A stretch of DNA of 33,782 nt. Origin: a virus. The notes under the pieces are model-generated. The model saw nothing but the letters and a program-made list of their open reading frames with translations, searched no databases and had not been told where the DNA came from. Location of the stretch: IMG/VR virus record IMGVR_UViG_3300049847_000468, positions 1 to 33,782 of that record; one strand, 5' to 3'. Below are positions 2,472 to 22,009 of this stretch, piece after piece (the stretch's first letter is position 1; the number at the start of each line of letters is the position of its first letter). The position numbers were made by a program, and so were the translations under genes.

Positions 2472-2623
2472 CGTTTCGGGTCTCGGTTGGGGAGTGCCGG
2501 CGGTGTTTCCGCGCTGCCGGCTTTCGCGGTGTGCGATCTGTGCATGGCGTAGAACCAGCAGAACAGCACCGCCTCGATGGCCCAAAGGATCACCATGGCG
2601 GTGCAGAAATGGCCGAGGCTCAT
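2468..2623 (-). CDS. Small single-span membrane protein (51 aa)
   Basis: This short gene occupies what otherwise looks like a 148-base gap. The ATG at 2623 overlaps the stop of the upstream gene (ATGA), and its TGA overlaps the ATG at 2471 in the same way, so it completes an unbroken chain of coupled cistrons. Residues 6-27 form one hydrophobic, aromatic-rich helix; the remainder is a short polar, Pro-rich tail. The size and topology fit a small phage membrane peptide such as an accessory holin or inner-membrane modulator. No family is recognised. Confidence 0.6.
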   Translation of the reverse strand: MSLGHFCTAMVILWAIEAVLFCWFYAMHRSHTAKAGSAETPPALPNRDPKR

Positions 2624-2988: not shown

Positions 2989-3234
2989 CTAGCTCTCCAG
3001 GCGGCGGCCGGTGCGCACGGACACCAGCAGGCAGGGGCCATTCGAGAGCTGCACGGAACCGCGGCCGTGGCGCACCTTGAGGTTGCCGCCGGAGCTTTCC
3101 GAGAACCAGCCGGCGTGGGCCTTCGAGTAGAGGGTGGAACGGGTGTAGGTGGCCACCTGGACAAGGCCGCCGGCGGCCAGGTGGGCGTTGAGCTCTGCGG
3201 CGGTGCAGCGGGCGGTGGTGTTGGCGGTGGACAT
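2989..3234 (-). CDS. Hypothetical protein, first gene after promoter-repeat copy 1
   Basis: This 81-residue protein is Ser/Thr/Gly-rich with predicted short strands and no recognised domain. Its importance is positional. It is the first cistron downstream of repeat copy 1, with about 54 bases between the predicted -10 box and its ATG. The leader contains an A/C-rich CCAACCAACC tract instead of a clear purine-rich Shine-Dalgarno. The downstream gene follows after three bases. Confidence 0.5.
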   Translation of the reverse strand: MSTANTTARCTAAELNAHLAAGGLVQVATYTRSTLYSKAHAGWFSESSGGNLKVRHGRGSVQLSNGPCLLVSVRTGRRLES

Positions 3235-3249
3235 TTCGGTGGGGTGGGG

Positions 3250-3379
3250 TTGGTTGGGGTGGTGGCCGGCGTTTCCGCGCCGGTGGTATTATGTTCGGCT
3301 ATTCCTGGTGGAATGGTAGCGCAATCCGAGAAAAATCGCGCCGCTGTAACTCCGCGCCGCCGGCCGTGTTGTGCGCCAC
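3250..3379 (-). promoter_or_regulatory. Promoter-like repeat, copy 1
   Basis: This is one of three near-identical blocks, each ending just before a minus-strand gene start. Reading on the minus strand it has a T-rich tract, then CCATTC, an ATTCC-N4-GGAAT palindrome (3301-3314), a -10-like CATAAT (3293-3288), and a perfect 6-bp inverted repeat CCGGCG/CGCCGG with a 6-base loop (3266-3283) at about the expected RNA start. No good -35 hexamer exists at 17 bp; the palindrome sits there instead, suggesting activator control. It matches copy 2 without indels over 130 bases, with scattered substitutions in the upstream half. Confidence 0.75.
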
Positions 3380-3391
3380 AGTGGTGGCGCA
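3372..3391 (-). terminator. Hairpin between the 4034-3417 gene and repeat copy 1
   Basis: TGCGCCAC and GTGGCGCA form a perfect 8-bp stem with a 4-base loop, 26 bases after the stop of the gene at 3417. There is no U-tract, so it is at best a weak or factor-dependent terminator. It overlaps the upstream end of repeat copy 1. The other two copies keep only one arm. Confidence 0.35.
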
Positions 3392-3416
3392 GCTCGACGC
3401 GGGCGGCGGGTTTCGC

Positions 3417-4034
3417 TCAGGCGCACACCTTGGCCATGGCGGCCAGGCGGCCCTTGTGTGTGCGCAGGCCGCAGGCGCGCGCGAGCTCGCGGCGGTCAGC
3501 TTCCCAGGCCCAGTAGGCATCCTCGGCCACGTGCACGCCCGCGCTGCGCAGGGCGATGGTTTGGGCGTGGCGCGCGGCATAACGCTGGCCGGCTGCAGCG
3601 CGCGCGGCGAGAAACTCCGCGGCGGTTTTCGCGGCGGCCTCGGGCGCTTGGAGCACCGGCGCGCCGCCGGCACCGATTACCACGGCCACCACGGCGTTGG
3701 TTCCGTGAAACTTGCCGCCGCAGGAGCAGGAGCAGTTAGGGCCCACCGCGCTGGCGCATTTTTCGTTGCAAGGGCACTCGAGCTGGGTGGTGACCAGGTG
3801 GCGGTTGTTGAACTTGGACACCAGGCCCATCAGCGAAACCGTGCCGCCGCAGCTGCAGCGCGCTTTCTCGCCCCAGTAGTACGCATCGGTGCGCGCCAGC
3901 TCTTCGCTGCAGGCTCCGATAATGGTGCCGGTAGTGTTGAACTTTGCGCTGCGCACTTGGAGCTCCACGGCCATGGGGGTCAGGCACGTATTGCACTTGA
4001 AGTAGGCCAGGCGAGGGGTGGTTTGGGTGGTCAT
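3417..4034 (-). CDS. Cys-rich zinc-binding phage protein
   Basis: This 205-residue protein has an N-terminal CNTC pair (14-17), a CSCGG element near 60-64, and a dense cluster from about 87 to 110 (CPCNEKC, then CSCSCGGKFHG). The last motif is a recognisable signature of an uncharacterised zinc-binding protein family found in phages of GC-rich hosts. The C-terminal half is helical and Ala-rich. It forms a one-gene unit between repeat copy 2 and repeat copy 1. The clustered Cys/His suggest several structural zincs; nucleic-acid binding is possible but not shown. Confidence 0.6.
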   Translation of the reverse strand: MTTQTTPRLAYFKCNTCLTPMAVELQVRSAKFNTTGTIIGACSEELARTDAYYWGEKARCSCGGTVSLMGLVSKFNNRHLVTTQLECPCNEKCASAVGPNCSCSCGGKFHGTNAVVAVVIGAGGAPVLQAPEAAAKTAAEFLAARAAAGQRYAARHAQTIALRSAGVHVAEDAYWAWEADRRELARACGLRTHKGRLAAMAKVCA

Positions 4035-4047
4035 CGGCGCGGGCTGG

Positions 4048-4177
4048 TTGGTTGGGGTGGTGGCCGGCGTTTCCGCGCCGGTGGTATTATGTTCGGCTAT
4101 TCCTGGTGGAATGGTAGAACAATCCGAGAAAAATCTCGCGGCCGTAAGTCCGCGCCGCCGGCCGAGTTGTGAGCCAC
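4048..4177 (-). promoter_or_regulatory. Promoter-like repeat, copy 2
   Basis: This is the second copy of the block at 3250, offset by exactly 798 bases. The -10 CATAAT is at 4091-4086, the ATTCC-N4-GGAAT palindrome at 4099-4112 and the start-site hairpin at 4064-4081. It differs from copy 1 just upstream of the palindrome (GAAC in place of GCGC on the plus strand). It lies 14 bases before the ATG at 4034. Confidence 0.75.
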
Positions 4178-4193
4178 CATTCCAGGCTGGCCG

Positions 4194-4571
4194 CTATTCG
4201 CTCTGCAGCTCGCGCAGCTCGAGCCTGCGGCCGAGGTCTGGGTGCTTGGCCGCCAGCAGCCTGGCGTAGCGGCTGCGGTAAGTGTTGTTGAGCTTGAACG
4301 TAGAGGCTGGGTCCTCGGTGTGCATCAGCCGCTGCCAGCGCAGCACCTCGAACACCATGCCGATGCCGAAACGCTGGTGGCCTCGGTCAGCGAGGCCCTG
4401 CGCGAGGCGCACGATTTCCTCGAACACCCAAGGGTTGGTGGCGTGGAATTCCTCGAACCGCGCCTGGATTGTGGCTTCATGCTCGGGGCCCATCGGCGGC
4501 ACAACCAGCGGCGGCGGCGGGTAGGTCCACGCCGGCCGCGGCCTGGCGAAAAAATCGCCCTGGTGGCTCAC
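4194..4571 (-). CDS. Conserved phage hypothetical protein
   Basis: This protein is 125 residues long from a GTG at 4571 that overlaps the upstream stop (GTGA). A longer ATG start at 4610 would overlap the previous gene by 43 bases and break the local coupling pattern. After a Pro-rich lead (about 10-35) comes a helical domain with 'NPWVFEEIVRLA...G', 'fgIGMVFEVLRW' and 'KLNNTYRSRYARLL'. This is a pattern I recognise from many phage and prophage hypothetical proteins of about 100 residues. No function is established for them. It is the last gene of the unit starting at 6039. Confidence 0.65.
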   Translation of the reverse strand: MSHQGDFFARPRPAWTYPPPPLVVPPMGPEHEATIQARFEEFHATNPWVFEEIVRLAQGLADRGHQRFGIGMVFEVLRWQRLMHTEDPASTFKLNNTYRSRYARLLAAKHPDLGRRLELRELQSE

Positions 4572-4819
4572 CGGCCGGCCCCCCACCTCTTTGAATAGTC
4601 GCCTGGCCACCTGCGCTGGGCCTCGCTGATGATTGCGCCGATCACGAAAGGCCAGAGCAGCGGGTTGGCCTCGAGCACCGCCCAGCGGTACGCCTGGCGC
4701 AGCTCAAGGTCAGGTAGCGCGCGCATCTGGCGCGCCAGCTGGCGCTGCCGCAGGAACGCACCGGCCACGGCCGCGCCGCAGCCGAGCACCACGCCAGCCC
4801 ACATATCCGGCCAGCTCAC
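4568..4819 (-). CDS. Small membrane protein
   Basis: This 83-residue protein starts at a GTG at 4819 that overlaps the preceding stop (GTGA). A hydrophobic, Gly/Ala-rich segment at about 6-23 is a likely transmembrane helix. A second apolar stretch near 51-63 ('LLWPFVIGAII') may be another. The loop between them is Arg-rich and should face the cytoplasm. The size and topology are compatible with an accessory holin or membrane modulator, but no family is recognised. Confidence 0.5.
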   Translation of the reverse strand: MSWPDMWAGVVLGCGAAVAGAFLRQRQLARQMRALPDLELRQAYRWAVLEANPLLWPFVIGAIISEAQRRWPGDYSKRWGAGR

Positions 4820-5259
4820 GGGTGCACCTCGCGGCCATCCCAGCGCAACACCGTTGCGCCGCCTCGGCGCAGAACCGCCTCGGCCGCCTCGCGGTCGGCT
4901 GGGCAAAGGGCTGCCAGGTGCTCAACGGTCACCCGGCTGCGGTCGGCCAGGCAGGCCCTGGATTGAGTGTCGGCCCATATTTCCGGCTCGCCGTTGCCGC
5001 TCGGCAGCTGCCGGTAGCAGAGTTTGGAATGCACGCTGCAGCACGTGCCAGGCAGGCCCTTTCGGTTGTACTTTGCGCAGGCAGTTTTATGTCCGTCCTG
5101 CCATAGCTTGAGCAGCTCGAGCTCCACGGCCACGGCCTCGGGGGTGCTTGTTGTGTTGCAGAATTCCGAGCTGCCGTTGCACGCCATGGCGTACGCATTG
5201 ATTGCGCGCCAGGTCGCCAGCCAAAGGGCATCGGCCGCGGTTTCCTGTTTGTTTTTCAT
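4816..5259 (-). CDS. Cys-rich hypothetical protein
   Basis: This 147-residue protein starts at the ATG at 5259, which overlaps the previous stop (ATGA); a longer upstream extension in frame would overlap most of the preceding gene. It has eight or more Cys spread through residues 25-110, including a CC pair with a nearby CSVHSKLC pattern. These suggest zinc binding or disulphides. There is no signal peptide, so zinc is more likely. No family is recognised. Confidence 0.5.
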   Translation of the reverse strand: MKNKQETAADALWLATWRAINAYAMACNGSSEFCNTTSTPEAVAVELELLKLWQDGHKTACAKYNRKGLPGTCCSVHSKLCYRQLPSGNGEPEIWADTQSRACLADRSRVTVEHLAALCPADREAAEAVLRRGGATVLRWDGREVHP

Positions 5260-5570
5260 TGTGCTGCGCTCGCTTTTTGCGCGGCTTTGTAGGCGGCCAA
5301 CCGGGCGGCCTTTCGGGCTGTTTCGTCCGCGGCTGCTTTTGTATTCCAGGCCGGGTTCCGCACCTGCACTACCACCGTGCCCTTGAGATTGCCGAGGGCC
5401 GTTCGGTTGAGCAGGGAAAAATCCTCTGGGCACGCCGGCAGGTCTGCCAGTCTGGTGTTTCTCGTTGGACGCCAGGCATAAACCACCTTGCACGTTGGGC
5501 AGCGGCCATGCGTAAAGAGGTGTCGGAACAGCTGGTAATCGGTCGTGATTGGTTTGGGTTGGGTGGCCAT
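5256..5570 (-). CDS. Hypothetical protein with one CxxC and basic helical tail
   Basis: This 104-residue protein has a single CPTC near residues 24-27 and a C-terminal Ala/Lys-rich helix (about 75-104). It starts at the ATG at 5570, 76 bases after the upstream stop. The gap holds a strong hairpin (5607-5639) and a CCAACCA-type leader. Its end overlaps the next ATG. Function is unknown. Confidence 0.5.
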   Translation of the reverse strand: MATQPKPITTDYQLFRHLFTHGRCPTCKVVYAWRPTRNTRLADLPACPEDFSLLNRTALGNLKGTVVVQVRNPAWNTKAAADETARKAARLAAYKAAQKASAAQ

Positions 5571-5606
5571 GGCGGTGTAGTGGTGGTTGGTGGTTTGTGT
5601 GGCAAT

Positions 5607-5639
5607 GCCAGCCGGCGCGCTCGAGGCTCGCCGGCCGGC
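5607..5639 (-). other. Intercistronic hairpin
   Basis: Two 11-base arms (5607-5617 and 5629-5639) pair with one G-U wobble around an 11-base loop. It lies between the stop at 5647 and the ATG at 5570. It lacks a U-tract, so it may be an attenuator, RNA-processing or stability element rather than a full terminator. Confidence 0.4.
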
Positions 5640-5646
5640 CGATAGA

Positions 5647-6039
5647 TCAGGCCAGGTCGATGCAGGCCACGATTTCGTACTCGGTGCCCATGTAAGGCCC
5701 GTGCTCGCTGCCGGCGAGCTCAGGAAATGCGCCGAGGATGGCCTGGCGCGCGAAAGCCGCGGCCTCGGCGCGCAGCGCCTGGAACCGCTCGAAACGCTCT
5801 TCGCCGAACGGCATCGCGTCGATGGTGGCGTGGTGCATTTCAGAGCCCACCAGGCCGAACATTCCGAGCCCAAGGCCCAGGCTGCTCATGGTTTGGTGGT
5901 CGCCCGTGATGGAGCTGGCTTCCCAGGCTCGGAAAATCAGCTCGCCGGCGGCGAACGGGCAGCGTGTGGCGTGCACCGTGATGGTGCGGCCGTTGAGGGT
6001 GAGGGTGCGGGGGGCGGGAAGGGTGGAGAGGGTGGCCAT
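5647..6039 (-). CDS. Hypothetical protein, first gene after promoter-repeat copy 3
   Basis: This 130-residue protein has a beta-like N-terminal 35 residues, a Gly/Leu-rich middle (about 52-64), and a charged helical segment at about 78-105. It ends with an acidic, beta-like stretch. No known family is recognised. It heads a five-gene unit (6039 to 4194), and repeat copy 3 lies immediately upstream with its -10 box 57 bases from the ATG. Confidence 0.5.
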   Translation of the reverse strand: MATLSTLPAPRTLTLNGRTITVHATRCPFAAGELIFRAWEASSITGDHQTMSSLGLGLGMFGLVGSEMHHATIDAMPFGEERFERFQALRAEAAAFARQAILGAFPELAGSEHGPYMGTEYEIVACIDLA

Positions 6040-6060
6040 GGCGGTGGTTCTCGGTTCGAG

Positions 6061-6188
6061 GTTGGGGCGGCGGCCGGCGTTTCCGCGCCGGTGGTATTAT
6101 GTTCGGCTATTCCTGGCTGGAATGGTAGCGCAATCCGAGAAAAATCGCGCTGCCGTAACTCCTGGCTCCTGGCCTACTTATGTGCCAC
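6061..6188 (-). promoter_or_regulatory. Promoter-like repeat, copy 3
   Basis: This is the third copy of the block. The -10 CATAAT is at 6101-6096 and the start-site hairpin at 6074-6091. The palindrome ATTCC/GGAAT (6109-6123) has a 5-base spacer instead of 4, a single-base insertion. The far upstream part is the most diverged of the three, but AATCCGAGAAAAATCGCG is kept. Confidence 0.75.
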
Positions 6189-6193
6189 ACTTC

Positions 6194-6457: not shown

Positions 6458-6738
6458 GGGCCGCGCTCCAGCCTGGCCGTACGCTTCCAATCGTCGCCAA
6501 CCTCGAGCTCCAGATCCTCGATGGTGAACTGCTCGAGCAGCTGGCTGCTGGCGCCTGCACTCTCGCCATGCAGCAGAACCGGCGGCAGCGACGGCATGTT
6601 CCACGCCAGGCGCGGCCAGTCAGGGTTCGCAATCTCAACCAGCCGCTTCCACCTGCGCAGCGCGCGAAACACGCGCCGCCAGCCTGCGCCAGCGCGCTCC
6701 TGCCTGGTCCTACGCTTCCACCTGGTGCCTGCTTTCAT
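6454..6738 (-). CDS. Small basic hypothetical protein
   Basis: This 94-residue protein has a strongly basic N-terminus (residues 1-35, many Arg/Lys) and an acidic, Ser/Glu-rich C-terminal part. It is translationally coupled to the upstream winged-helix gene by ATGA overlap at 6735-6738. A small basic partner next to a candidate initiator could be a nucleic-acid-binding helper, but no family is recognised. Confidence 0.5.
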   Translation of the reverse strand: MKAGTRWKRRTRQERAGAGWRRVFRALRRWKRLVEIANPDWPRLAWNMPSLPPVLLHGESAGASSQLLEQFTIEDLELEVGDDWKRTARLERGP

Positions 6739-7688
6739 GTTGTGCCCTCTCTAGTCTCTGGCCCGTGCAGCCAACCGTGGGCGCGCTCGAGCTCCTGCGC
6801 ATCGGCGCAGGCGAACGCTCGCCACACCCAGCCGCCGGCGTTTCGTACTCGGTCACCTCTCACCAGCGCGCGCGCCAACATGGCGCCGGCCAGCCGCAGC
6901 CGCTTCCACCCTGCCGCCGCCTTGAACGTCCCAGGCCCGCGCAGGCCGGCGCCGGCAGCAGCCAGCGCGCCGAACACCTCGAACGGCCCAGCAGCCGAGC
7001 GCAGCGCGCGCGCGAGCTCCACGCCTGCGGCACGTACGGCCTCGAGCTCCCCATGGTTGGCCGCGGCGCGCGGCGGCGGCGGTTTCGGCCTCGCCAGCAC
7101 ACCCTCGAACGCCAGCTGGTGCTGCACCGGCTTGGTGCGCCAGCCGGCGAACAGCCGCCGCCAGACTTCCGGCGAATGCCTGGCAGCAGGGTGCTGCTCG
7201 AGCAGCCTGGCCCCAGGCCCTGCCCAAAACTCGGTGGCGGCCTCGCCGTCGAGCAGGTGGAAGGTATCTGGCCAGCGCGGCCTACGCTCCCGGTGCGCAG
7301 GATTGCGGCGCACCGGCAACCAGTCGCCTGGGCTGCGTTGAAGGATTCCGCTCTGCTCCAACGCACCAAGGTGCGAGCGCATCGAGCGCAGGCAGGGCGC
7401 GCCCTCGCCATAGAAGCCAGCCCAGGCGCGCAGTAGGCCCTCGGCGCCCAGGCGCGCAACCGCACCAGGCACGTACCACGGTTTCGATGGGCGAGCTCCC
7501 AGCGGGCAGCGCAGCGCGAACAGCAGCAGCACGATACGGGCGCGCACCTCGCGCACATCACGCCGGCGGCTTGCGGCCTCAACCAGGCCGGCGAGCAGCA
7601 CCGAGCGGCCTGCCAGCTCATCGAGCGGGCTTGCGCCCTGGACCAGCGGCGCGGATAATCCACGCGCCAGGGGGTTGAGACTCGACAC
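6735..7688 (-). CDS. Winged-helix DNA-binding protein, possible replication initiator
   Basis: This 317-residue protein has a helical N-terminal half (about 25-130) ending in a winged-helix pattern. The pattern is 'SMRSHLGALEQSGIL' followed by a basic wing 'LPVRRNPAHRERRPRWP'. The C-terminal half is Ala/Arg-rich and helical. This architecture resembles the DNA-binding part of phage and plasmid replication initiators, but also of ordinary regulators. Its context favours replication. It lies directly downstream of a gene-free stretch with two DnaA-box matches and a TCTACC/GGTAGA palindrome. No helicase or primase motif is present. It heads a three-gene coupled unit. Confidence 0.5.
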   Translation of the reverse strand: MSSLNPLARGLSAPLVQGASPLDELAGRSVLLAGLVEAASRRRDVREVRARIVLLLFALRCPLGARPSKPWYVPGAVARLGAEGLLRAWAGFYGEGAPCLRSMRSHLGALEQSGILQRSPGDWLPVRRNPAHRERRPRWPDTFHLLDGEAATEFWAGPGARLLEQHPAARHSPEVWRRLFAGWRTKPVQHQLAFEGVLARPKPPPPRAAANHGELEAVRAAGVELARALRSAAGPFEVFGALAAAGAGLRGPGTFKAAAGWKRLRLAGAMLARALVRGDRVRNAGGWVWRAFACADAQELERAHGWLHGPETREGTT

Positions 7689-12246: not shown

Positions 12247-12506
12247 GGTGTGGGCCTGATAGTGGCCACCGGCTCAGGTAGGGCTGGCGGGTTGAGCTTG
12301 CGCACGCTGCGCTGCCAATAGCCGAATAGGACGCGCTCCTGCCAGGGGTAGGTCCGCTCCTGGGCCTCAGTCCACTGCTCGGCCCGCACGTGCTGGACCA
12401 GTCGGCGGTCAACGGTGTGGAAGGGCTTGGCGAACCAGTACCACTCGCCCAGCTCTGGGGTTTCGGTTGTCCACGGGTCACGTATTTTTAGCCGCCACCA
12501 GCTCAT
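12243..12506 (-). CDS. GEWYWF paralogue B
   Basis: This 87-residue protein shares its layout with the preceding gene: a Trp-rich start, then 'TPELGEWYWF' at about 17-26, 'QWTEAQERTYPWQ', and a C-terminal 'W-Q-R-S' region with a Pro-rich tail. The two are tandem paralogues that have diverged outside these blocks. The many Trp and Tyr and the small size suggest a compact beta-domain. No family is recognised. Its ATG overlaps the stop of paralogue A (12503-12506). Confidence 0.55.
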   Translation of the reverse strand: MSWWRLKIRDPWTTETPELGEWYWFAKPFHTVDRRLVQHVRAEQWTEAQERTYPWQERVLFGYWQRSVRKLNPPALPEPVATIRPTP

Positions 12507-12736
12507 GGGATTGGTTGGGCAAGGGTCATCGGGTCAGGCATGGCCGGCAATTTCAGAGCTCGCCAGCTGCGCTGCCAGCCGCACATCCGCACACGGACCT
12601 GCCAGGGAAAATGCCTTTCCTCGGCCTCGGTCCATTGAAGGGCCACGCGCGAGCGGCTTGGCAATGCCATGGGGTTGGTGAACCAGTACCACTCGCCCAG
12701 CTGCGGTGTGCTGATTGTCCAGGTCTGGCGTTTCAT
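12503..12736 (-). CDS. GEWYWF paralogue A
   Basis: This 77-residue protein contains 'TPQLGEWYWF' near residues 10-19, then 'LQWTEAEERHFPWQVRVR' and a 'CGWQRSW' element, matching the downstream gene block by block. It begins at the ATG at 12736, two bases after the stop at 12739. A gene duplication within the operon is the simplest explanation. Function is unknown; the conserved aromatic core could be a ligand or protein-binding surface. Confidence 0.55.
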   Translation of the reverse strand: MKRQTWTISTPQLGEWYWFTNPMALPSRSRVALQWTEAEERHFPWQVRVRMCGWQRSWRALKLPAMPDPMTLAQPIP

Positions 12737-15715: not shown

Positions 15716-15786
15716 ATGTCACGGAATGGAAGGGGCGGCTACCTGATTCCGTGATTTCCTGCTAGGCTTTTCCCATGTCACGGAAA
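15716..15786. promoter_or_regulatory. Divergent operator with three TCACGGAA half-sites
   Basis: TCACGGAAT (15719-15727) and ATTCCGTGA (15746-15754) form a perfect 9-bp inverted repeat with an 18-base spacer. A third half-site TCACGGAA (15778-15785) lies inside the first codons of the plus-strand gene. The element spans the whole 68-base space between the ParB-like gene and the HTH gene. It is a natural operator for either protein, or a small parS-like centromere. Confidence 0.6.
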
Positions 15787-16723: not shown

Positions 16724-17032
16724 TCAGGGGATGTTCTCGGCCACGGTGAAGGCCACGGGGTCTAGCGGGAACCGAAACGCTGCGGTGGCCACCTCGAACT
16801 GGTAGCGCCACTCGCCTGCCTGGTCGATGTCGCCTGGCTGCACCACGTACACCACCAGGCCGTCGAGGCCGGTGGTCCCCAGCTGGGCCGTTTTGTGCAG
16901 CGTGGTGCTGTCTGGCTTTTCCAGCCGGAACTCGAGCAGGGTGGCGCCGGAGATATCGGCCGGCACGCCGTCGAGCAGTAGCACCGCCTCGATGGTGTAG
17001 CCGGAAGATCCAACGCGCAAAAGGTCGCTCAT
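16724..17032 (-). CDS. Phage baseplate/fibre-associated Ig-like small protein
   Basis: This 102-residue beta-rich protein has 'YTIEAVLLLDGVPADISGATLLEFRLEKPD' and ends 'FPLDPVAFTVAENIP'. It resembles the BppU N-terminal or phage Ig-like domains that attach fibres or decorate the baseplate, where the 'dg.p.dlsgat...f.l.kPdg' pattern is typical. The start overlaps the preceding stop (ATGA). It is the last gene of the tail/fibre operon, just before the hairpin at 16666-16702. Confidence 0.6.
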   Translation of the reverse strand: MSDLLRVGSSGYTIEAVLLLDGVPADISGATLLEFRLEKPDSTTLHKTAQLGTTGLDGLVVYVVQPGDIDQAGEWRYQFEVATAAFRFPLDPVAFTVAENIP

Positions 17033-17958
17033 GGGGCTGGGGTGGTCATCTGGCGCCTGGTGGTCTGCCGAGTCGATCCTACCTCGCTGGTCGTGCGGAT
17101 ACTCGGGGTGCGGTTGGAGCTCTGGGCCGTCTGCAATTCCACCGTGGTGCGGCTACTGGTTTGGCGGCCAGAACGCACTAGCGAGACTCGACGCCCGAGC
17201 CAGGGGAAGTAGCCGCCGCCGGCGTGGCCCTCGCTCAGGCCCTCGAGCGCGCCGCTGCCGCTCAGTGCCGCCAGGCATTCCGCCCAGCCCTCAACGGTGC
17301 CCGAGAGGTTGGGCGGTAGGGCACCGATGCCGATAGCCACCGCGCTGCATTCCGCGGCGAACGCCTCGGAGCCAGCCAGCGCGCCCATGGCCGCCGGGGT
17401 GGCAACGGCCTCGGCCGCGCCCTGCGCTGCGGCCTGCAGCGCGCCAGAGGCCGCGGGCACCGCCTGCGCAACCGCCACACCTTGCGCAACCGGCGCCAGT
17501 GCACCGCTCGCGGCCGGCACCGCCAGCTGCTCGGATACACCCTGCGCAATCGGAACCAGCGCCGTGGGGGCTCCGGCGGTGAGCTCGGCCACCGCCTCGG
17601 ATACGCCCTGCGCCGCGGCCACCAGCGCGCCCGTTGCTGCCGGGGTGGCAACGGCCTCGGCCACGCCCTGCGCAGCAGCCTGCAGCGCGCCAGAGGCCGC
17701 GGGCACCGCCTGCGCAACCGCCACACCTTGCGCAACCGGCGCCAGTGCACCGCTCGCGGCCGGCACCGCCAGCTGCTCGGATACACCCTGCGCAATCGGA
17801 ACCGCGGCGCCAGTGCCGGCCGGGGTTGCCGAGCCATCGGCCACACCCTCCACCTCGGCAATCAGCGGCGAGGTAGAAACCTCGAGCAGGTAAACGCCCG
17901 TGCCGTCCTCCAGCAGGTAGCGGTCGGCCGTGGTTTCGAGCTGTAGGGCGTCGGCCAT
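17029..17958 (-). CDS. Repeat-rich fibre/adhesin-like protein
   Basis: This 309-residue protein has a short N-terminal beta part ('RYLLEDGTGVYLLE', about 13-26). About eight Ala/Val/Gly-rich repeats follow (about 45-195), each roughly 20 residues, of the form 'AQGV-xE-x-AVPAASGAL'. The C-terminus is Ser/Thr/Arg-rich. The repeats look like a low-complexity beta or coiled fibre shaft. An 82-codon block is duplicated almost exactly at DNA level (17393-17557 and 17639-17803). The C-terminus lacks the usual carbohydrate-binding look, so this may be a decoration rather than a receptor-binding protein. Confidence 0.5.
   Translation of the reverse strand: MADALQLETTADRYLLEDGTGVYLLEVSTSPLIAEVEGVADGSATPAGTGAAVPIAQGVSEQLAVPAASGALAPVAQGVAVAQAVPAASGALQAAAQGVAEAVATPAATGALVAAAQGVSEAVAELTAGAPTALVPIAQGVSEQLAVPAASGALAPVAQGVAVAQAVPAASGALQAAAQGAAEAVATPAAMGALAGSEAFAAECSAVAIGIGALPPNLSGTVEGWAECLAALSGSGALEGLSEGHAGGGYFPWLGRRVSLVRSGRQTSSRTTVELQTAQSSNRTPSIRTTSEVGSTRQTTRRQMTTPAP
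17393..17803. repeat. Internal 165-bp direct repeat in the repeat-rich protein gene
   Basis: The blocks 17393-17557 and 17639-17803 are identical except for about three substitutions, with an exact 246-base (82-codon) period. The in-frame period shows expansion of the protein repeat by a recent duplication or recombination event. Confidence 0.85.
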
Positions 17959-20809: not shown

Positions 20810-22009
20810 TTAGAGCTCGGCGTCAGCCGTAAAGTGCCCGTTGAGCAGCGAGAGGCCGCGCACCGAGGCCACATTGGGATAGCCGCTGGAAACCTGGTTG
20901 TTGTCGCTTGTGCTGGTCACCGCGCGCGCCGCGCCTTCCCAGTCCACGTTGCCGGCTGTGCCAGCGCCGGGCGAATACCAGGTTAGGGTTGGTGTGGCGC
21001 GCATCTTCACCGGGTAGCGGGTGTCTAGGGTGTGCCCTGCCTGGCCGGATATCCATGCCCTGGACGATCCTGGCGTGCTCACGGTGCCAGGCGGGTTATT
21101 GGTGCTGGAGTTGGGGTCCGTTATGTAGGTGTTCCAGTAGTACCGCGCGCAGCGCAGTTGGTCGAGCGCCAGGGGCATTTGCACGAACGGCGAGGCCGCG
21201 GCGCCGGCCTCGAATTGCACGCTGCCAATAAGCACCGAGAACAACAGCGCGCTCTGGAATTTCAGCCGCACGGCCAGGTAGGTGTCGGAATTTATGCCGT
21301 TGTAGGTTTTGGCGGAAATGCTGGGAAGGGCCACGCTCGCCTGGTGGCGGTTCTGCCCGGCTCCAAGGGTGAGCACGATATTGGGGCCAGCCGTCACCAC
21401 ATCAGCACTGCCGCCACCGCCAAAGTTTTGGACGAACTCGGTAGCGATGGTCAGCGTGGTGCCAGCGCCGAGACTCTCGAGCTCGGCATAAAACGAAACC
21501 ACCGCGGTTTGAGCCTGGAAGGTGCGCACATCCTCCACGCGCTGTTCGAGAAACGGCACCGTGCCCACCGCGGTCTGGTTGTGGCGCAGGCAGACATCAT
21601 GCCCGGCGGCCAAACCTTTGGCGTGCGTGCTCCACGATGCTCGCGCAACCGTGGACGCAGCCGCGCCTGCGGTTCCTGGCGAGGATTTCCAGCGGTCGGC
21701 CAGGTAAAGCACCTGGCCCACGGTCAGGTTGTTGGAATAGGGAACTCGGTTCCAGAGCAGGAAATTGGCATTTAGCAGCACATTGCGGAACACGCGCGGC
21801 GGCCTGGCAAAACCGTCAATCGCGGATAGCAGCTGGGTGTTGGTGGGCTTGTTGAGCACGATTCCGGCGCCCTCCACCACGTTCACCAGCTCGGCCTGCA
21901 CGGCGTTGAGCCAGTCATCGGTCACCTGGGTGGCCGGTGTGCCGGCCTGCGGGTCACCCTCGAGAAACGTATTGCCGGGGCCTGGGTTTGCGCCGTCGAT
22001 TTTGTGCAT
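20810..22009 (-). CDS. Tail fibre protein
   Basis: This 399-residue protein has an N-terminal attachment module ('FLEGDPQAGTPATQVTDDWLNAVQAELVNVVEGAGI', about 15-50) that I recognise from phage tail fibres near gp48/gp49. A 'NVLLNANFLLWNR...ADRWKSS' segment at about 76-110 follows, recalling the beta-sandwich domain in many fibres. The C-terminus is beta-rich. The expected role is host recognition at the baseplate. It follows gp48 by 15 bases, the usual place for fibre genes in Mu-like tails. No separate fibre-assembly chaperone gene is recognisable downstream. Confidence 0.75.
   Translation of the reverse strand: MHKIDGANPGPGNTFLEGDPQAGTPATQVTDDWLNAVQAELVNVVEGAGIVLNKPTNTQLLSAIDGFARPPRVFRNVLLNANFLLWNRVPYSNNLTVGQVLYLADRWKSSPGTAGAAASTVARASWSTHAKGLAAGHDVCLRHNQTAVGTVPFLEQRVEDVRTFQAQTAVVSFYAELESLGAGTTLTIATEFVQNFGGGGSADVVTAGPNIVLTLGAGQNRHQASVALPSISAKTYNGINSDTYLAVRLKFQSALLFSVLIGSVQFEAGAAASPFVQMPLALDQLRCARYYWNTYITDPNSSTNNPPGTVSTPGSSRAWISGQAGHTLDTRYPVKMRATPTLTWYSPGAGTAGNVDWEGAARAVTSTSDNNQVSSGYPNVASVRGLSLLNGHFTADAEL

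Follow-up and report, generated by a model that had tools for sequence, protein, structure and literature searches.

Repeated elements placed before or between genes have been described in several phage lineages. Cluster K mycobacteriophages carry repeats, named start-associated sequences (SAS) and extended start-associated sequences (ESAS), before the start codons of some non-structural genes of different families, and their function is unknown; SAS is 13 bp long, is present in 11-19 copies per genome and is apparently related to ribosome binding, and ESAS are imperfect 17-bp inverted repeats with a variable spacer (PMC3203893). In cluster O phages (Corndog), more than 30 copies of a 17-bp dyad repeat with perfect 7-bp arms are found, without being tied to start codons (PMC4351075). 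Phage Mu, for its part, has several late promoters with a poor -35 that depend on one common phage activator, protein C (PMC4461284).

Here we describe a block of about 130 bp that occurs three times in a record of 33,782 bases from an uncultivated Mu-like phage (the window, analysed at its full length), each time before a minus-strand gene. We argue that it is probably a duplicated expression cassette, that is, a promoter for the host polymerase joined to a 5' leader, placed before three unrelated small-gene units. The 13-bp SAS sequence GGGATAGGAGCCC is absent from just before the start codons, where the block leaders have no Shine-Dalgarno (SD) complementarity, and the arms in the block measure only 5 and 6 bp, compared with the 17-bp inverted repeats of the ESAS type.

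The repeated block

The window is an entire virus record with a GC content of 67%. Its right half holds the genes of a Mu-like contractile tail, whose baseplate J protein shares 46% identity with its counterpart in Bordetella phage PBb001. Its left part consists of consecutive small genes on the minus strand, nearly all without family matches. Genes for a terminase, a portal or a capsid were not seen, and the record is therefore probably a fragment. Elsewhere on the map, the phrog_13625 protein at 4194-4610 is related to proteins of phages that infect widely differing hosts (Mycobacterium, Polaribacter, Prochlorococcus and Tunturiibacter); a 187-nt direct repeat (17371-17803, 96% identical) lies within an Ala/Val-rich reading frame (17029-17958); and a 51-nt repeat (12423-12473 and 12671-12721, 82%) is found in two adjoining small genes with a common GEWYWF motif, which are probably paralogues.

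The three blocks lie where the initial annotation had reported them, with copy 3 beginning at 6060. Our alignment also agrees with its description of copies 1 and 2 as gapless and of copy 3 as bearing a one-base insertion in the palindrome.

3250-3379, minus strand: block copy 1, before gene 2989-3234
4048-4177, minus strand: block copy 2, before gene 3417-4034
6060-6188, minus strand: block copy 3, whose palindrome is one base longer, before gene 5647-6039
2989-3234, minus strand: 81-aa protein without family match, downstream of copy 1
3417-4034, minus strand: 205-aa Cys-rich protein with a weak phrog_6842 match, downstream of copy 2
5647-6039, minus strand: 130-aa protein without family match, downstream of copy 3

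In all three cases, and in the same orientation, the block takes up the intergenic space from a stop codon to the following ATG. The proteins they serve (81, 205 and 130 aa) have no evident relation to one another, and all three genes open with ATG-N-CC-ACC. The presence of one non-coding block before several genes of the same direction is a feature of a repeated phage promoter cassette, and we find it here.

Pairwise identity among the copies is 88-94%: copies 1 and 2 are 91-94% identical, and copies 1 and 3 agree at 88% across 130 nt, with one inserted nucleotide within ATTCC-N4-GGAAT (blastn E of about 1e-45 for 1 vs 2 and about 1e-36 for 1 vs 3). The core CATTCC-N4-GGAATAGCCGAACATAAT had no occurrence in shuffled sequence, even with three mismatches permitted. 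The 57 nt running from the GGAAT end region through the -10 and the hairpin to the leader are 96-100% identical among copies, compared with merely 75-88% for the upstream 48 nt; copy 3 departs from copy 1 at 12 positions of the initial 48 and, counting the insertion, at only 5 of the 83 that start with the TTTTTC run. In a looser blastn comparison the similarity reaches through the start codons (3202-3380, 4011-4177 and 6004-6189). The copies are probably duplicates of one original, and the features they have in common therefore count once, not three times. A repeat that regulates nothing, be it a mobile repeat, a site of recombination or the product of a recent duplication, would suit the high identity of the copies and the lack of relatives described below, but we hold it to be quite improbable: 3/3 copies exactly span stop-to-start gaps in one orientation, and it is the promoter and leader that are best conserved, not the ends of the block.

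Putative promoter elements and direction

Read on the minus strand, each block contains in order GATTTTTCTCGGATTG (about -61 to -46), ATTCC-N4-GGAAT (about -33 to -20), CATAAT (-12 to -7), the hairpin CCGGCG-CGGAAA-CGCCGG at the predicted +1, then 29-34 nt of leader, and ATG-N-CC-ACC. The palindrome had been assigned to the -35 position; with CATAAT counted as -12 to -7, it sits in the spacer.

3288-3293, minus strand: CATAAT, putative -10 of copy 1, with a predicted start (+1) at 3281
4086-4091, minus strand: CATAAT, putative -10 of copy 2, with a predicted start at 4079
6096-6101, minus strand: CATAAT, putative -10 of copy 3, with a predicted start at 6089

CATAAT and the hairpin are found in every copy, as previously noted, and the block CATAATs make up 3/5 of all minus-strand hexamers with a 5/6 match to TATAAT in this record of 67% GC. 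As for the core elements of a sigma-70-type promoter, a putative -10 is there and the -35 is absent. No hexamer at spacings 14-26 exceeds a 3/6 match to TTGACA in any block, which bears out the earlier remark that a strong -35 is missing, and a scan for sigma-70 sites found none.

The plus strand at this site carries TGGTATTAT in all three copies, an extended -10, and promoters of the extended -10 type do not require a -35. The motif alone thus leaves the direction of the promoter unfixed. It could in principle point in the plus direction and yield an RNA antisense to the preceding gene, but this seems to us very unlikely, as we found no terminator and no conserved reading frame downstream on the plus strand, as the peptide there loses its frame in copy 3 through the insertion and its changes between copies 1 and 2 are mostly non-synonymous (read by eye), and as the end of the copies at minus-strand start codons and their open leaders would be left unexplained. 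We favour the minus direction because the block is arranged before minus-strand starts. The plus-strand peptide, MFGYSWWNG, was discarded as a coding sequence on account of its broken frame in copy 3.

The inverted repeat and its candidate binding proteins

In the initial annotation, a phage protein, likely an activator, was proposed to bind the palindrome and to coordinate the three units as one regulon, and the RHH protein was named as a candidate.

3301-3314: ATTCC-N4-GGAAT inverted repeat of copy 1, from pattern scan
4099-4112: ATTCC-N4-GGAAT inverted repeat of copy 2, from pattern scan
6109-6123: ATTCC-N5-GGAAT inverted repeat of copy 3, from pattern scan

A phage protein, RHH or other, that recognised ATTCC/GGAAT in dimeric form and switched the three promoters on or off as a regulon would make sense of several observations. 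The inverted repeat lies between the -35 and -10 positions in 3/3 copies. In the motif search that had been suggested as a check, ATTCC-N2..8-GGAAT was found at the blocks and nowhere else in the 33.8 kb, and no related block appeared in the other collections searched; ATTCC or GGAAT singly has 64 occurrences in the 33,782-base record. The blocks lack a -35, and a 5-bp inverted repeat with a spacer of 3-8 nt falls within the 32-nt promoter piece in just 2% of shuffles. Against this, the arms are only 5 bp long, and one such repeat is expected per 130-nt block (it occurs somewhere in 56% of shuffled blocks). Within the promoter piece the repeat is mildly unusual, and it is suggestive at best of a regulator site. 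Moreover, the sole insertion of the conserved core is at the centre of the repeat in copy 3, where the half-sites are 5 nt apart, versus 4 in copies 1 and 2: a dimer with a fixed half-site spacing would notice this change, and the fixed spacing of ParB/KorB-type sites is not kept (5 instead of 4).

Candidates among the phage's own products are an RHH-like, a ParB-like and an HTH_17 protein. The RHH protein (2151-2471) scores 18.2 bits, below the Pfam cut-off of 20.5; its single-sequence model has a mean pLDDT of 76, and a fold search with this model ranked RHH structures first at E of about 0.4 to 1, a weak likeness. It is one of several possible binders, and we found no specific support for it. 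The ParB-like protein (ParB_N/HTH_ParB) and the HTH_17 protein, whose match is below the Pfam cut-off, are associated with three arms of TCACGGAA(T) (15719-15727, 15746-15754 and 15778-15785), placed between the two genes (divergent promoter) and at the start of the second gene. The stretch 15719-15785 is likely the autoregulatory operator of the pair, and its inverted repeats have only ATTCC in common with that of the block. For the protein that would bind the block, no further independent site is known. The winged-helix label given to the 6735-7688 protein is tentative, the predicted model (pLDDT 46) being too poor for use.

The initial interpretation is supported in part: the shared promoter-like unit is the best reading, whereas the claim of a regulator is weak, with the 5-bp arms and the altered spacing of copy 3 speaking against it; for a site between -35 and -10, moreover, an activator is no better supported than a repressor. 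A dimer governing the three units together appears to us possible, if doubtful.

Hairpin, leader and translation starts

3266-3283, minus strand: hairpin CCGGCG-N6-CGCCGG of copy 1, from pattern scan and folding
4064-4081, minus strand: hairpin of copy 2, with competing pairings when folded with downstream sequence
6074-6091, minus strand: hairpin of copy 3, with competing pairings when folded with downstream sequence
3235-3265, minus strand: A/C-rich leader of copy 1, without Shine-Dalgarno
4035-4063, minus strand: A/C-rich leader of copy 2, without Shine-Dalgarno
6040-6073, minus strand: leader of copy 3, without Shine-Dalgarno
2485-2514, minus strand: putative hairpin and leader in diverged form, ahead of the RHH gene 2151-2471 (20/30 ungapped, blastn E 0.11, a weak match)

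The predicted +1 positions (3281, 4079 and 6089) coincide with the base of the hairpin. When the region from -30 to +30 was folded at 40 gene starts, the block genes took ranks 1, 4 and 5 for least structure, and ranks 2 and 6 fell to genes 5256-5570 and 2151-2471 (RHH), whose leaders resemble those of the blocks and lack the promoter part. The openness of the block starts may come in part from their lack of overlap with an upstream gene. A possible gene for a 51-aa membrane protein (2468-2623) overlaps the RHH start and contains the leader-like hairpin before RHH.

The hairpin and open leader, and the similar leaders of two genes that have no promoter part, could also be read as signs of a block acting mainly at the RNA level, on translation or stability, in longer transcripts started elsewhere. 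This is in our opinion improbable: the conserved part extends well upstream of the hairpin and includes the -10, Rfam gave no match at the blocks, and a further hairpin upstream is lost in copy 2. We do not count this upstream hairpin (GCGCGATTT/GGATTGCGC, present in copies 1 and 3) as conserved, since copy 2 breaks the pairing with no compensation.

The absence of a Shine-Dalgarno from the leaders has its counterpart at the scale of the record, where we found no SD enrichment at gene starts among the 33,782 bases: the mean SD energy is -2.9 kcal/mol at hand-picked starts and -2.2 kcal/mol at automatically called ones, vs -3.0 kcal/mol at random positions. Enrichment is present in 16/16 comparison loci, although the effect is small in one (L094), and another (L155) has only its strong-site fraction to be used (0.32 vs 0.14), its control mean being a numerical artefact. 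Non-SD genes tend towards relaxed starts in species where SD genes are few, and the planctomycetes are one of the phyla poor in SD genes (PMC5397173).

Relatives and possible host

Scans of viral contigs and species genomes with the core pattern gave no match, and a DNA search with the block in 392 genomes (the phylum of a planctomycete prophage) gave one chance-like match, to its GC-rich first 27 bases. Four single proteins of the record, used as queries, retrieved no near relatives, and protein searches of plasmids and phages retrieved distant ones only. A profile search with the baseplate protein yielded 80 loci from viruses and 80 from genomes; identity did not exceed 49%, and the block was in none of them. 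Repeats of 50-400 nt were also surveyed in the other loci; the examples looked at were for the most part of coding or tRNA type, and a block-like arrangement was seen in none. Because no relative with the block was found, its function is not separable from recent duplication or gene conversion, and conservation, the best computational test of function, is not applicable with the collections searched.

Planctomycete genomes (L120 and L094) supply two of the three best matches of the tail protein 20810-22009, and no relative of it was found at E 1e-20 in 390 other genomes of the phylum sample. A planctomycete host is plausible; L120 shows SD enrichment, unlike the phage record.

Discussion

The reading that best suits our data is a shared promoter-like unit before three small-gene units, because its position, its -10, the missing -35, the hairpin at the predicted start and the unusually open translation start all fit together. 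In the cassette that we propose, host RNA polymerase would start at each block in the minus direction, about 7 nt past CATAAT. Without a -35, the polymerase would presumably be helped or controlled by a bound protein or by the A/T-rich sequence upstream. Starting at the base of the hairpin, each RNA would carry a stem-loop at its very 5' end, which could protect that end, and a largely unstructured, SD-free leader would leave the start codon open to the ribosome. The three units would thereby be expressed alike. Several points count against such a cassette, namely the -35 match of at most 3/6, the lack of a sigma-70 site in the scan, the plus-strand TGGTATTAT, and the competition met by the hairpin in copies 2 and 3.

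A bolder version, which we offer as a rather unlikely one, is that a phage of a low-SD host has standardised a whole part, made of a protein-dependent promoter, a stabilising hairpin and an open SD-free leader, and has built a regulon by copying this part before newly acquired unrelated genes. If right, the block would be a compact natural expression part from a phage seemingly translated without Shine-Dalgarno, a setting in which few promoters and leaders have been studied, and an example of unrelated small genes brought under shared control by the copying of one block.

A literature search on repeated phage promoters found nothing. The closest systems are those introduced above. Like SAS and ESAS, the block is repeated before the starts of unrelated genes and has an inverted repeat, as some of them do; unlike them, it is about 130 bp long, has three copies, includes a -10 and has no Shine-Dalgarno. 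With the Mu late promoters it shares the occurrence of several promoter-like units without a good -35, in a phage whose tail is Mu-like, but it serves small genes without assigned function and its dependence on an activator is only putative; no C/Mor homologue was found among the scanned proteins, which cover part of the ORFs of a record that is probably a fragment. As in Corndog, an inverted-repeat sequence recurs between the genes of one phage lineage, here in three copies with 5-bp arms, each before a start codon. 5'-terminal stem-loops of the ompA type slow the decay of some bacterial mRNAs, and the block would resemble them in having a hairpin at the very 5' end of the RNA, given the predicted start, and a putative stabilising effect. 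Most likely, then, the block is a further example of repeated phage control elements, with a sequence of its own, rather than a new kind of system.
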